Shown here piece by piece: positions 11,141 to 18,820 of a DNA stretch of 32,430 nt. Positions within the stretch are counted from its first letter, which is position 1. Each line of letters opens with the position of its first letter. Origin of the DNA: a bacterium (Candidatus Blackallbacteria) CG13_big_fil_rev_8_21_14_2_50_49_14. GTDB taxonomy: Bacteria; Cyanobacteriota; Sericytochromatia; UBA7694. A program made the position numbers and the translations under genes. A model generated the notes under the pieces. That model made no database searches, was not told where the DNA came from, and saw only the letters and a program-made list of their open reading frames with translations. The stretch is from the NCBI GenBank assembly GCA_002783405.1, contig PFGG01000008.1, positions 189 through 32,618 of the forward strand, given 5' to 3'.

Positions 11141-11893
11141 CTATTGATGCGCCTTGTGGTAGAGATAATAGCCTCCAGCGGCTAAGCCTGCAGCTGCCAG
11201 GCCAACGCCTACAGCCACACCTGCAGCAGCCACTTTGGGGCCACCGACAGTCGAAATCAGTTTTGAAAGGGCAGGGCCCGTGGGAACTTTCAGACCTATA
11301 GCGGTCAGTTTGCCCGCAATCAGCTGGGCTGTGCCATAGCCCCCCAAATTGGAGAGCGGCGCACCCAAGGTGGCAGTAATCGCAGTTAAAGCACCCGCAG
11401 TGCCTACGGTACCCACAGCACCACCGATCAAAGCGGCTTTGCCCAGATAGAGCTTTTTAGATATATCCACAGGCTGAGCGGGCGTTTCCTGAACGGGAGC
11501 CGGGGCCTCTTGAACGGGAGCAGGCGTTTCCTGTACCGGTGCGGGAGTCGGAGGCTCTTGAGGCGCAGGGGTTTCTTGAATCGGTTGAGCAGGCTGTTCA
11601 GCTGCGATCGGCAAGGTCAAAACCTGTTTGGGGTAAATCAAATCTGGATTTTTAATCTGGTCTTTGTTTAAATTGTAAATCGCATTCCAACGGGTCGGGT
11701 CGCCCAATTTGGCTTTGGAAATATTCCAGAGATTATCGCCTTTTTTTACGGTATAGGTTTGCAGTTTATCGCCACTCTGCAAAGCAGATTCAGGAGCTGA
11801 CTGAGCAATAGCTTGTTCAGCAGGGGCCGATTTGGGAGCCACTGCCGGGGCAGGTAGGACGGGCAAAGAAGCAGATACTTGTAAATTCGACAT
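11141..11893 (-). CDS. LysM-domain protein with Pro-rich linker
   Basis: A 250-residue protein with one LysM domain (about residues 46-95: YTVKKGDNLWNISKAKLGD, then NAIYNLNKDQI and PKQVLTLP), which in known proteins binds peptidoglycan or chitin. It is followed by a Pro/Glu/Gln linker with near-repeats of APVQETP and APVQEAP (about 107-142). A C-terminal 100-residue Gly/Ala-rich hydrophobic region ends in a probable membrane helix and YYLYHKAHQ. There is no N-terminal signal peptide: the start MSNLQVSASLPVLPAPAV is neither basic nor helical-hydrophobic. The ATG at 11893 is preferred over an in-frame TTG at 11965 because it has GAGAG upstream. It is divergent from the Omp85-like gene, which also lacks a signal. 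Topology is uncertain. Confidence 0.8.
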   Translation of the reverse strand: MSNLQVSASLPVLPAPAVAPKSAPAEQAIAQSAPESALQSGDKLQTYTVKKGDNLWNISKAKLGDPTRWNAIYNLNKDQIKNPDLIYPKQVLTLPIAAEQPAQPIQETPAPQEPPTPAPVQETPAPVQEAPAPVQETPAQPVDISKKLYLGKAALIGGAVGTVGTAGALTAITATLGAPLSNLGGYGTAQLIAGKLTAIGLKVPTGPALSKLISTVGGPKVAAAGVAVGVGLAAAGLAAGGYYLYHKAHQ

Positions 11894-12157
11894 GGTTCTC
11901 AACTCTCTTTTCGCAAACTCTGTATACAACTCTTTTCGTAGCTTGCCCCGCGCAACTGAACTCAAGCTGCTTAGAATTAAATGAATTTTACAAATTACTT
12001 AACCATCCTTAACCTTTGAGCGGCCTTGATTTCAGCAAAACCCCGCTTTTAAAAAACAGGTTAATCCGGCAAAATTGCCCTCTGGCACGAAAGATCTAAC
12101 AGCTTCTGTGCGATAATTCTTATCAGAGCCATTTTATCCAGTAAAGGATTTCCTCCT
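11894..12157. other. Divergent intergenic region, LysM/Omp85
   Basis: 264 bases between two divergent start codons, holding the promoters of both genes. On the plus strand TGCGATAAT (12109-12117) resembles an extended -10 box about 40 bases before the Omp85 ATG. On the minus strand no convincing promoter was found. The Omp85 frame is open back to a TAA at 12062-12064 but contains no ATG, GTG or TTG, so no hidden signal peptide can be added. Confidence 0.5.
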
Positions 12158-14422
12158 ATGCCGAATTTGAATGTCAACGGGCGCACAGTCGACCCCAACA
12201 GTATCCGCAAGATCTCCGTTCCTGAAGGAGAAACCCCCAAATCCTATCTTCAGAAAAACGAAGCCCTGATTCGTAAAAATTTTAAAGACGAGCTCTATTT
12301 TGAGCAAAACGGGGATCTCTTTGTTACCGAAGATCGTTTTATTGTCGAAAGCATGGGCGGCAACCTCAAAGACGCCAAACTGCGCATGGGTGCAGTTCCT
12401 GCTGTCGCCTTGATGCTCGACAATGAACCCGACTCCCATAAAATTACCGATCTGGAAATCACTGGCGCTCCCACTGAAACCGAATGGCTCAAAAAAGAAC
12501 TGGGGCTCAAAAAGGGTGACCACGTCAATTTGCACGATTTGCAAAAAAAGGCAGATGTTCTCTTCCGTTCCAATCGCTTTTTAAACGTCAATTTTGTGCC
12601 TGAAGCCTCCGAGAAGGGCATCAAACTGCGGCTAGATGTGACTGAAGTACCCAAAGAAATCAAATTCCATGGCGCAGAGCCGGGCCAGGAAACCAAACTG
12701 AAAGCCCTCTTTCCCCAACCTCTGACCCAGGAAAATATCGCCAAAGGCATGCAGGCCGTTCAAGATCTGCAAGACAAAGACACCCAATCTCTCCTGCGTG
12801 GCCTCGACTTTAAAATCAACGGCAATCAACTGGATGTCATGATTTCAAAGGCGCAAATCCCCCAGCGCATGACCTTTGCGGGCATGAGCACCCAAGAAGC
12901 AAGTTCTGTCGAGCCCTTCTTTCAAAAGCCCCTGAACTATGAAAACATTGAAAAAGGCATGGAGAATATGCGCAAGCATTTCGCCAAACAAGGCTATATC
13001 CTGCCCACCCTTGAATTCAATGTCAAAGGCGAAGACCTCACGATTCAGATGAGCAAAGCCCCGATGCCCACCCGCATAGAGATCAAAGGGGCCACGGTTT
13101 ATTCCGAACAGGAAATCAAGGGCATGTTTAAAGAACCTCTGACCATGGAGCATATCCAAGCCGGCCTGCGCGAACTTGAAAAGAAATACAATGACGATGG
13201 CTATGTACTCATGCCTCCTGAAGGCGTTTCTGCCGACCTCGACAAGGGCGTGCTCTCGATTCAGGTACGCGAAGCCAAGCTCAGCAGCATCGAATTGAGT
13301 GGCAATGACAAAACCAAATCTGATGTGATTATGCGCGAAATGCGCCAGCATGCAGATAAACCCCTGAATATGAAAACCCTCGATCAGGACTTGCAGCGCG
13401 TGGCTGGCACCGGTTTGTTTGCCAATGTCAACAAAACCGTTGAACCCGACCCTCAAAACCCAGACAAAGTCAAAGTTCGGGTGCATACCGCTGAAGAGAA
13501 AATGTCGAGTTTGAATGTGGGCGCGGGCTACAGCATGAGCAATGGCCCCTTCGGAACCGCCAGCCTGAATCTTGGCAACGTAGCAGGCATGAATCGCAAG
13601 GTCAGCATTGATGGCACGCTGGGAACCAAGGTTTGGGGCGGGGGCTTGAGCTATTATGATCCCTGGATGTTTGAAGGCCGTACGTCCTTTGGCGCCAGTG
13701 TCTACCACCGCCAATGGCAGGGGCCCTATTCCGACGAAACCCGTACAGGAGCAAAAGTCAGCCTGGGCAAACCCCTGGGAGATATTTACGATTCTCCCTG
13801 GCGGGCCGATGTTACCCTCAGCGCCGAACGGATTGGCATTGACGACCAATACAGCGTCAGCGGCACGGGCACCGATTATCGCGTGGGTGTGCGCCCCTCA
13901 ATAACCTACAGTACCCTCGATGACCCTGTTATGCCCCACAAAGGCACCAAATTCCAGGCTGGCGCAGAACCCGTCTGGGTCAGTGGCCGCGTGATTGGCA
14001 AATTCGATGCCAGCGCCAGCCACAATATTCCCCTGGGCGAACGCTTTACCCTGACAGGCAGTGTTCAGGGCGGCACGATTTTAGGCGATGCACCGCTCTA
14101 TGAAAAATACAATAATGCCGGTTTGGGACGCACCCTGATGGGATGGGAATCAGACGGCAAATTGGTCGGCAATAACTATGCCATGGCCAGTACCGGTGTC
14201 AACGCTCAAATTTGGGGCCCTGTGAGTGCCACCGCCAAATTGACAGCGGGTGACTATTTTGATGGCACCGATATTCACCCCAAAGTCGGCGCAGGTGTAG
14301 GCGTCAATGTCAAAATCGGGAATTTTGGCGTGCTCAACGCAGGCTATGGTTTCAAATTGGTTGGCAAAGAAAAGGGCGACAGCCCCGGTGCCTTCCATTT
14401 GGGCTTTGGCATTCCCTTCTAA
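12158..14422 (+). CDS. Omp85/BamA-like protein with five POTRA repeats
   Basis: A 754-residue protein with five POTRA-like repeats and a C-terminal beta-barrel. The repeats span roughly 95-165, 166-236, 237-304, 305-373 and 374-447, each with an ITDLEITG/RIEIKGA-type first strand and two helices; repeats 2-4 share a PLTxENIxxGM-type helix. The barrel (448-754) has alternating-residue strands, GxxFxxG-type turns and ends in the aromatic LGFGIPF beta-signal. Five POTRAs match proteobacterial BamA, whose job is inserting barrel proteins into the outer membrane. The odd feature is the N-terminus: about 90 polar residues (MPNLNVNGRTVD...) with no signal peptide, although Omp85 proteins need Sec export. 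AAAGGA lies about 10 bases before the ATG. A strong terminator follows. It could be the sole BamA or a specialised paralogue. Confidence 0.85.
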   Translation: MPNLNVNGRTVDPNSIRKISVPEGETPKSYLQKNEALIRKNFKDELYFEQNGDLFVTEDRFIVESMGGNLKDAKLRMGAVPAVALMLDNEPDSHKITDLEITGAPTETEWLKKELGLKKGDHVNLHDLQKKADVLFRSNRFLNVNFVPEASEKGIKLRLDVTEVPKEIKFHGAEPGQETKLKALFPQPLTQENIAKGMQAVQDLQDKDTQSLLRGLDFKINGNQLDVMISKAQIPQRMTFAGMSTQEASSVEPFFQKPLNYENIEKGMENMRKHFAKQGYILPTLEFNVKGEDLTIQMSKAPMPTRIEIKGATVYSEQEIKGMFKEPLTMEHIQAGLRELEKKYNDDGYVLMPPEGVSADLDKGVLSIQVREAKLSSIELSGNDKTKSDVIMREMRQHADKPLNMKTLDQDLQRVAGTGLFANVNKTVEPDPQNPDKVKVRVHTAEEKMSSLNVGAGYSMSNGPFGTASLNLGNVAGMNRKVSIDGTLGTKVWGGGLSYYDPWMFEGRTSFGASVYHRQWQGPYSDETRTGAKVSLGKPLGDIYDSPWRADVTLSAERIGIDDQYSVSGTGTDYRVGVRPSITYSTLDDPVMPHKGTKFQAGAEPVWVSGRVIGKFDASASHNIPLGERFTLTGSVQGGTILGDAPLYEKYNNAGLGRTLMGWESDGKLVGNNYAMASTGVNAQIWGPVSATAKLTAGDYFDGTDIHPKVGAGVGVNVKIGNFGVLNAGYGFKLVGKEKGDSPGAFHLGFGIPF

Positions 14423-17731: not shown

Positions 17732-18820
17732 ATGCGTGCATCCCGAACCTTGCTAACCTTGCTGGCCTGCGCCACGGCATTCAGCGCCTGCCAGAATCAG
17801 CCCTTTTCAAGCCCCCTTTCACGGGCCTCGGCCCCGCTGCAACAGAACAGCGTTTCAAGTTTTTTACAACACACCCTTCTGAACCAGTACCAGGCCCAGT
17901 TTCAAGAGCATGATCTCAACCACAATGGCCGCCTGGAACCCCAGGAATTGCCTCACGCCCCGCAGACCTTCAGCCGCTTGGATCGCAACCGGGATGGTTT
18001 TCTAAGCCCCGAAGAAGCGCAACCCGAAAGCAGCTTTCTGCGCCGACAGGGTGAGTTTCTGCTCAAAGAACTGCGCACGGCCTTTGAAAGCAAACACAGT
18101 GGCAGTGAGGATCCCCAATTGGAAATGCCCTTGGAAAACAGCTACGCCCAATTTGAAAATGCCTTTCTCAGCCAGACCGAAACCTTCCGCAGCAGCATGG
18201 AACAGAACAACACACCTCAAACAACGGGTCGCACCCCTGTGCTGCTGGTGCCCGGTTATGCCGAACCCAGTTGGTATTTTATGTATGGTATTTACCGCGA
18301 CCTGAAAAAAGCGGGTTGGCCGGTCGAAGGCATCAATCTTTTCCCCAATTTTGCCTCAGCCGAAGAACAGGCCGCCAAGGTCAAGGCCAAAGCCGAAGCC
18401 CTGATGAAAAAATATGGCAGCAAAAAAGTCAATCTGGTTGTTCACAGTTTTGGCGGCCTGATCAGCCGCTATTTTATTCAGGAAAGGGGCGGCAACCAGG
18501 CCGTCGAAAATCTTGTCACGGTCGCCACCCCCCATTTGGGTACTTATACCGCCTACCTGGGGCCCGGTCAGAGTGCCGTACAATTGCGTCCTGAAAGTGA
18601 ATTTATTCAAAAGCTGAATGCCCAGGGCTTTACCCGCCCCCCCGTCAAATACACCTCGATTTGGTCCAATCTCGATGAGATTGTGATTCCTCCCAAAAAC
18701 TCGATTATGCCGGACTCAGAGGTACAATACGTGCCCTGGACAGGTCATTTAACGATCATGTTCAGCAAACGTACCTACGCCCATATCCGCCAGGCGCTCG
18801 AAAAACCAACGCGCCGATAA
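17732..18820 (+). CDS. EF-hand lipoprotein with alpha/beta lipase domain
   Basis: A 362-residue predicted lipoprotein (signal ending in AFSAC, Cys20). Two canonical EF-hand loops follow: Asp61-Asn63-Asn65-Arg67-Glu69-Glu72 and Asp84-Asn86-Asp88-Phe90-Ser92-Glu95. Residues 168-360 form an alpha/beta hydrolase of the triacylglycerol-lipase kind: VLLVPGYAEPSWYF, the nucleophile Ser239 in VVHSFGGLISRYF, VTVATPHLGTYTA, a probable acid Asp315 in SNLDEIVIPP and His339 in WTGHLTIM. The elbow has Val in place of the first Gly of GxSxG. Calcium-binding motifs joined to a lipase on a lipoprotein suggest an envelope or surface enzyme controlled or stabilised by calcium, but this is inference. Phospholipase or esterase activity is also possible. 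Confidence 0.85.
   Translation: MRASRTLLTLLACATAFSACQNQPFSSPLSRASAPLQQNSVSSFLQHTLLNQYQAQFQEHDLNHNGRLEPQELPHAPQTFSRLDRNRDGFLSPEEAQPESSFLRRQGEFLLKELRTAFESKHSGSEDPQLEMPLENSYAQFENAFLSQTETFRSSMEQNNTPQTTGRTPVLLVPGYAEPSWYFMYGIYRDLKKAGWPVEGINLFPNFASAEEQAAKVKAKAEALMKKYGSKKVNLVVHSFGGLISRYFIQERGGNQAVENLVTVATPHLGTYTAYLGPGQSAVQLRPESEFIQKLNAQGFTRPPVKYTSIWSNLDEIVIPPKNSIMPDSEVQYVPWTGHLTIMFSKRTYAHIRQALEKPTRR

Follow-up and report, generated by a model that had tools for sequence, protein, structure and literature searches.

An Omp85 paralogue of Sericytochromatia without a recognisable Sec signal, and the N-terminal domain that it shares with other signal-less proteins

The protein described here, encoded in a metagenome-assembled genome of the class Sericytochromatia, is a conserved Omp85 paralogue of one order of that class and, to judge from the gene as read at six orthologous loci, it has, as translated, neither a Sec nor a Tat signal. 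Its first ~90 residues (1-93) form a domain for which the name SND (Sericytochromatia N-terminal domain) is coined here, and the protein is accordingly referred to as SND-Omp85. Two of its properties go beyond what had been noticed in the original sequence view, namely that the N-terminal extension is a domain of dozens of signal-less proteins, and that the lid-lock typical of the superfamily has been lost; so does the presence, in the same genome, of two ordinary BamA-like proteins with signal peptides. Sec is the route by which barrels of the bacterial outer membrane are expected to pass the inner membrane. A conserved barrel that is never found with a Sec signal, in a genome whose other BamA-like proteins have one, would imply either that the envelope can be entered by a different route or that Omp85 is put to use elsewhere. 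Among non-photosynthetic bacteria, Sericytochromatia are one of the groups most closely related to cyanobacteria, and a leaderless Omp85 in this class is therefore of interest for the origin of the cytosol-made Omp85 proteins of organelles. As a handle on the question SND is convenient, being a single domain that occurs in ~80 natural fusions and yields a clear prediction.

The gene, its start codon and its barrel

The window (the whole stretch of DNA analysed, 32,430 nucleotides) is contig C8 of a host genome of 5.65 Mb that is 96% complete, and whose nearest named relatives, in a scan of GTDB contigs, are Candidatus Sericytochromatia assemblies; all genomes compared, including that of the host, are metagenome-assembled. 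The features of the gene are as follows.

12158..14422, + strand: coding sequence of the signal-less Omp85 paralogue, 754 residues, ATG start (ORF analysis, Pfam, orthologues)
12143..12148, + strand: Shine-Dalgarno-like AAAGGA, 9 nt 5' of the ATG (similar site in all six orthologues)
12158..12436, + strand: SND domain, residues 1-93, alpha/beta (profiles; AF2 of the domain alone)
12437..12646, + strand: POTRA 1, residues 94-163 (AF2 secondary structure)
12656..12856, + strand: POTRA 2, residues 167-233 (AF2)
12866..13063, + strand: POTRA 3, residues 237-302 (AF2)
13073..13267, + strand: POTRA 4, residues 306-370 (AF2; Pfam POTRA_2 at 305-372)
13277..13495, + strand: POTRA 5, residues 374-446 (AF2; Pfam POTRA at 374-442)
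13496..14419, + strand: 16-strand Omp85 beta-barrel, residues 447-754 (Pfam Omp85; AF2; strand amphipathicity)
14135..14146, + strand: degenerate L6 lid-lock motif LMGW, residues 660-663, for (V/I)RG(F/Y/W) (alignment with BamA-like proteins)
14237..14251, + strand: degenerate strand-13 motif KLTAG, residues 694-698, for FxDxG (alignment)
14393..14419, + strand: aromatic, beta-signal-like C-terminal end FHLGFGIPF (terminal Phe kept across orthologues having the C-terminus)

Membership of the superfamily is clear from Pfam, which finds Omp85 (PF01103) at residues 474-754 (E 1.9e-22, above cut-off) preceded by POTRA repeats (PF07244, POTRA, 5e-22, and PF08479, POTRA_2). The AlphaFold model of the 754-residue chain has 16 barrel strands and, before them, five repeats resembling POTRAs, although with a mean pLDDT of 69 from a six-sequence alignment its topology is usable but its geometry is not. 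The initial annotation had proposed just this arrangement, with five POTRAs and a barrel ending in an aromatic beta-signal, and both points are borne out. BamA structures are the whole-chain Foldseek neighbours of the model, and a PDB sequence search returns BamA together with POTRA chains of cyanobacterial Omp85. The BamA equivalog TIGR03303 scores 144.9 bits, which is below its cut-off of 297.15, the Toc75 model matches weakly (E 1.1e-13), and the matches listed among plasmid records are of the ordinary BamA type only.

Absence of a signal peptide was judged by hydropathy. Residues 1-40 have no hydrophobic core, the highest 9-residue mean being -0.17, as against 2.69 and 2.67 by the same measure in the two signal-bearing BamA-like proteins of the host, so that the ~90 polar residues without a Sec signal described initially are indeed what the sequence contains. 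It was likewise correct that the frame, followed upstream, stays open only as far as 12065 and offers no ATG, GTG or TTG before 12158. The decisive comparison is with the orthologous loci, six in all with that of the host and drawn from two families of Sericytochromatia, the other five proteins being 84% (G001), 61% (G002), 65% (G003), 67% (G004, partial) and 34% (G006, from the sister family) identical to it. All six have the same ATG, a conserved polar N-terminus and a Shine-Dalgarno-like site 6-9 nt before the ATG; in none of them is there an upstream frame able to supply a leader, nor, when the N-termini are compared by hydropathy, a Sec signal, so that the observation named in advance as refuting, a cleavable signal at the corresponding place in homologues, was not made among these orthologues. 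A comparison of the first 60 codons in the host and G001 shows 26 synonymous and 8 non-synonymous substitutions, and dN for residues 1-93 (0.08, with dS saturated) is similar to that for the barrel (0.065). Given the conserved start and the low dN, the N-terminus would appear to be translated and selected in its present form; by this measure codons 1-93, which encode SND, are under purifying selection.

Ordinary Sec export by way of a cryptic leader, whether because the start is non-canonical or because an internal signal has gone unrecognised, is in consequence very improbable. What speaks for it is that the upstream frame of the window, though it has no start, contains the hydrophobic segment FCAIILIRAIL; however, orthologues lack this segment or have it interrupted by stops, and as the equivalent frame is interrupted by stops in G001 it is not a hidden signal. 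The good ribosome-binding site at the same ATG in every orthologue also tells against a cryptic leader, as does the fact that in G002 and G003 the upstream oppC ends within ~100 nt of the gene, leaving scant space for one. An assembly or sequencing error, or a gene in decay, is barely credible: G003 does have an ambiguous base and a frame break within the barrel, as is typical of contigs of this kind, but the frame is unbroken in the five other loci where covered (G004 ends at a contig end) and dN/dS is low throughout, which rules out decay. The six loci similarly rule out a missed start or frameshift, and a sequence error. Thus, of the three options originally offered for the missing signal, a rare start and a sequence error are effectively excluded, which leaves an unusual export route as a candidate; taken as a whole, that interpretation is partly supported.

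A search for a second bamA, suggested at the same time, shows that the host has three further Omp85 proteins, on contigs C43, C76 and C64. Those on C43 and C76 are ordinary BamA-like proteins with plain Sec signals (for C76 the start is taken as the Met at residue 44), so that Sec export of Omp85 is evidently normal in this organism. In a tree the SND-Omp85s group together with full support and apart from these two, though how deep the split between them lies is uncertain, G006 being a long branch. The N-terminal part of the C64 protein (L004, G000:C64:296874) resembles WD40/TolB repeats by eye, and it may be likened to the WD40-Omp85 subfamily (PMC4104836).

Omp85 proteins have two motifs in common, of which (V/I)RG(Y/F) occupies the tip of L6 and (F/G)xDxG lies on strand 13, the Arg of the one and the Asp of the other forming the lid-lock salt bridge (PMC4490367). 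Neither is present in the five SND-Omp85s that cover this region. Their L6 motifs read LMGW, LMGW, LLGW, LLGW and VYGR, so that the Arg has become Met, Leu or Tyr in every case, and the Asp of strand 13 is Thr in all five; the two BamA-like paralogues of the host keep both motifs (IRGW/FTDLG and IRGW/FADYG). The alternating pattern of lipid-facing residues along the strands is nevertheless as strong as in those paralogues (z ~6 against shuffled sequences), and the terminal Phe is present in every orthologue with a C-terminus. There is accordingly no sign that the barrel has turned soluble. From its residue pattern it looks fit for a membrane and not locked as BamA is, and with both lid-lock residues lost it is probably not an insertase of the BamA type, but rather constitutively unlocked or structural.

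Around the gene, the only recurrent neighbours in relatives are the upstream oppC (G002, G003) and a divergent LysM gene (G001). The latter also lies in the window (11141-11893, - strand), where it encodes a LysM protein whose C-terminus is hydrophobic and rich in Gly/Ala and which starts without a signal peptide (MSNLQVSASLP...); in G001 the LysM/Omp85 pair keeps this divergent arrangement, and a similar, likewise signal-less, LysM protein occurs on contig C64 of the host. A leaderless peptidoglycan-binding LysM protein fits the same puzzle as SND-Omp85. The window also has an exported neighbour at 17732-18820 (+ strand), which combines an EF-hand with a lipase-like alpha/beta-hydrolase and begins with a lipoprotein-type signal (MRASRTLLTLLACATAFSAC).

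SND as a domain of signal-less proteins

A profile built from the six Omp85 N-termini alone gave only weak matches to other signal-less proteins (best E 0.0013), but once four of these had been added a search of the class gave strong matches, down to 1e-11 in other families. The final 46-row profile has 82 matches, in 16 of the 18 genomes of the class and with 11 in the host; SND-Omp85 itself is found with E 4.9e-22, a value that includes its own row in the profile. In 274 other Cyanobacteriota genomes the same profile gave three marginal matches (E 0.005-0.007), and among the Cyanobacteriota genomes searched the domain thus appears, by profile matching, to be essentially confined to Sericytochromatia. 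Outside Cyanobacteriota the search comprised GTDB contigs, scanned once with patterns derived from the Omp85 lineage, together with plasmid and phage records, the last of which contained no SND (tblastn with one SND domain).

That the Omp85 N-termini belong with the remainder is supported by hhalign, in which they align with 33 non-Omp85 members over the whole domain (Prob 97.8, E 7.6e-13), although it must be remembered that these members had been gathered with a profile that had contained Omp85 rows. An HMM made from five hairpin proteins and run against 4,699 ORFs matched SND proteins only, SND-Omp85s included, and no shuffled ORFs, individual Omp85 N-termini being marginal in this comparison (E 0.002-0.11). 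The core signature of the domain is NG..(V), then N(G)xDE(I/L)(Y/F)F...G..YV(A), then (D/N)(D/N)E.N. The AF2 model of the domain by itself has pLDDT 77 and shows a compact alpha/beta unit spanning residues 1-88. No sequence match for it was found in Pfam, NCBIfam or the PDB, and no structural match of any weight among PDB and viral models, the query being a model from six sequences. It is not a POTRA, as no Pfam POTRA model matches it and its secondary structure differs.

Most SND proteins are of the membrane-hairpin kind, in which one hydrophobic segment rich in Gly/Ala, or two, and then a short tail of polar residues come after the domain. Among the 53 frames that have a start codon, the start lies within 12 codons of SND in 50, and a hydrophobic, signal-like run precedes SND in one only, the two-domain protein L142; this last (L142:1194-1925, G017) has two SND domains with a hydrophobic segment between them. 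Other partners are a signal-less double HKD, phospholipase-D-like protein of NucT/cardiolipin-synthase-like type (host C64:142777 = L126:1475-2944), an alpha/beta-hydrolase (host C82, also G004) and, in the Omp85 lineage, a full POTRA-barrel. The SND genes of the host are scattered singletons and do not form an operon, nor was a shared secretion cluster seen beside ten of them. Counting charges around the hairpins of SND proteins by the positive-inside rule gave no indication of the side on which SND lies.

Sorting, export and alternative explanations

The reading we favour, if tentatively, is that SND-Omp85 is a repurposed paralogue in which the N-terminal SND acts as a sorting or adaptor domain that replaces the Sec signal, with the barrel destined for the outer membrane. 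As an Omp85 barrel is expected in the outer membrane, and as there is no Sec or Tat signal, substitution of SND for the signal is the parsimonious mechanism. SND would on this scheme be a folded N-terminal tag bound by a cytoplasmic factor, which might keep membrane-active cargo (the barrel, Gly-zipper hairpins, and lipid- or phosphodiester-cleaving enzymes) soluble and deliver it to a route independent of Sec, with insertion of the barrel into the outer membrane as the supposed last step; the function of SND as a tag, its export and its destination are all inferred. The broader proposition, in which Sericytochromatia would possess an undescribed Sec-independent sorting system where the folded, ~90-residue SND directs dozens of signal-less, membrane-active proteins, a complete five-POTRA Omp85 among them, to a membrane beyond the cytoplasm, is a more speculative one and must be called unlikely as it stands. 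Neither gene neighbourhoods nor the presence and absence of FlhA and sheath genes revealed any export machinery linked to SND.

The main rival, itself on the unlikely side though to be taken seriously, is that the protein stays inside. SND would in that case be a cytoplasmic adaptor that gathers signal-less membrane- or lipid-active proteins at the cytoplasmic face of the inner membrane or of an internal compartment, and the Omp85 would have been repurposed there. Such an arrangement is consistent with the lack of signals in SND proteins, with the fact that a hairpin protein residing in the inner membrane does not require a Sec leader, and with the loss of the lid-lock, as might follow from relaxation of the ancestral outer-membrane function. 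However, the amphipathicity of the barrel is as full as in the BamA-like proteins of the host and its aromatic C-terminus has been kept, and we know of no beta-barrel that functions in a bacterial cytoplasmic membrane.

Export of a flagellar or type-III-like kind, with SND proteins as substrates of a second FlhA-type export gate in the class, is improbable. Most genomes of the class have at least two near full-length FlhA proteins, one of those in the host lying in a flagellar operon and the other alone; type III substrates are signal-less, and one SND gene adjoins what, by eye, appears to be a second FliF/FliG set. Against this, FlhA is present in G014 and G015, which are without SND, FlhA copy number does not follow SND number, both host FlhA proteins pass the flagellar equivalog and not SctV, and type III signals are usually unstructured whereas SND is structured. 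The notion that SND proteins are cargo of a contractile injection system finds no support in presence and absence, as sheath genes score above cut-off in 4 of the 18 genomes and SND occurs in 16.

Some features of these FlhA genes may be recorded separately. The second near full-length copy of the host (L168:9977-12151, G000:C55) lies outside flagellar operons and adjoins a gene for a B12-dependent ribonucleotide reductase of 1,269 residues (L168:12562-16371), in which matches to intein models at 172-466 indicate a probable intein. A further frame (L170:12349-14004, G000:C80), beside fliR and flhB, combines a match to the C-terminal part of FHIPEP (FlhA) with an MshE-type c-di-GMP-binding motif, and G013, G015 and G016 each have several extra matches to the FHIPEP C-terminal domain.

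Comparison with known systems

A search of the available literature found no paper on a signal-less Omp85 or on export in Sericytochromatia. Like SND-Omp85, the eukaryotic-organelle proteins Toc75, Oep80 and Sam50 are synthesised in the cytosol and have no Sec signal of the bacterial kind. They enter their membrane from the cytosolic side, aided by organelle import systems; we know of no import system of organelle type in a free-living bacterium, and SND is, we take it, not a transit peptide.

With BamA and cyanobacterial Omp85 the protein shares five POTRAs, a 16-strand barrel and an aromatic C-terminus, but it differs from BamA in lacking a signal peptide, in having an N-terminal SND and in having lost both lid-lock residues, and in the host it is additional to two ordinary BamA-like proteins. 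A survey published in 2014 distinguished ten Omp85/TpsB subfamilies, among them the WD40-, patatin-, metallo-, lipo-, noNterm and BamA-like types, of which the BamA-like proteins have 1-3 POTRAs and are always additional to BamA (PMC4104836). These ten subfamilies provide precedent for Omp85 barrels with odd N-terminal domains, although SND with five POTRAs is among none of the architectures of the survey (PMC4104836). What is new here, then, is the domain SND, carried by a member of the known Omp85 superfamily.
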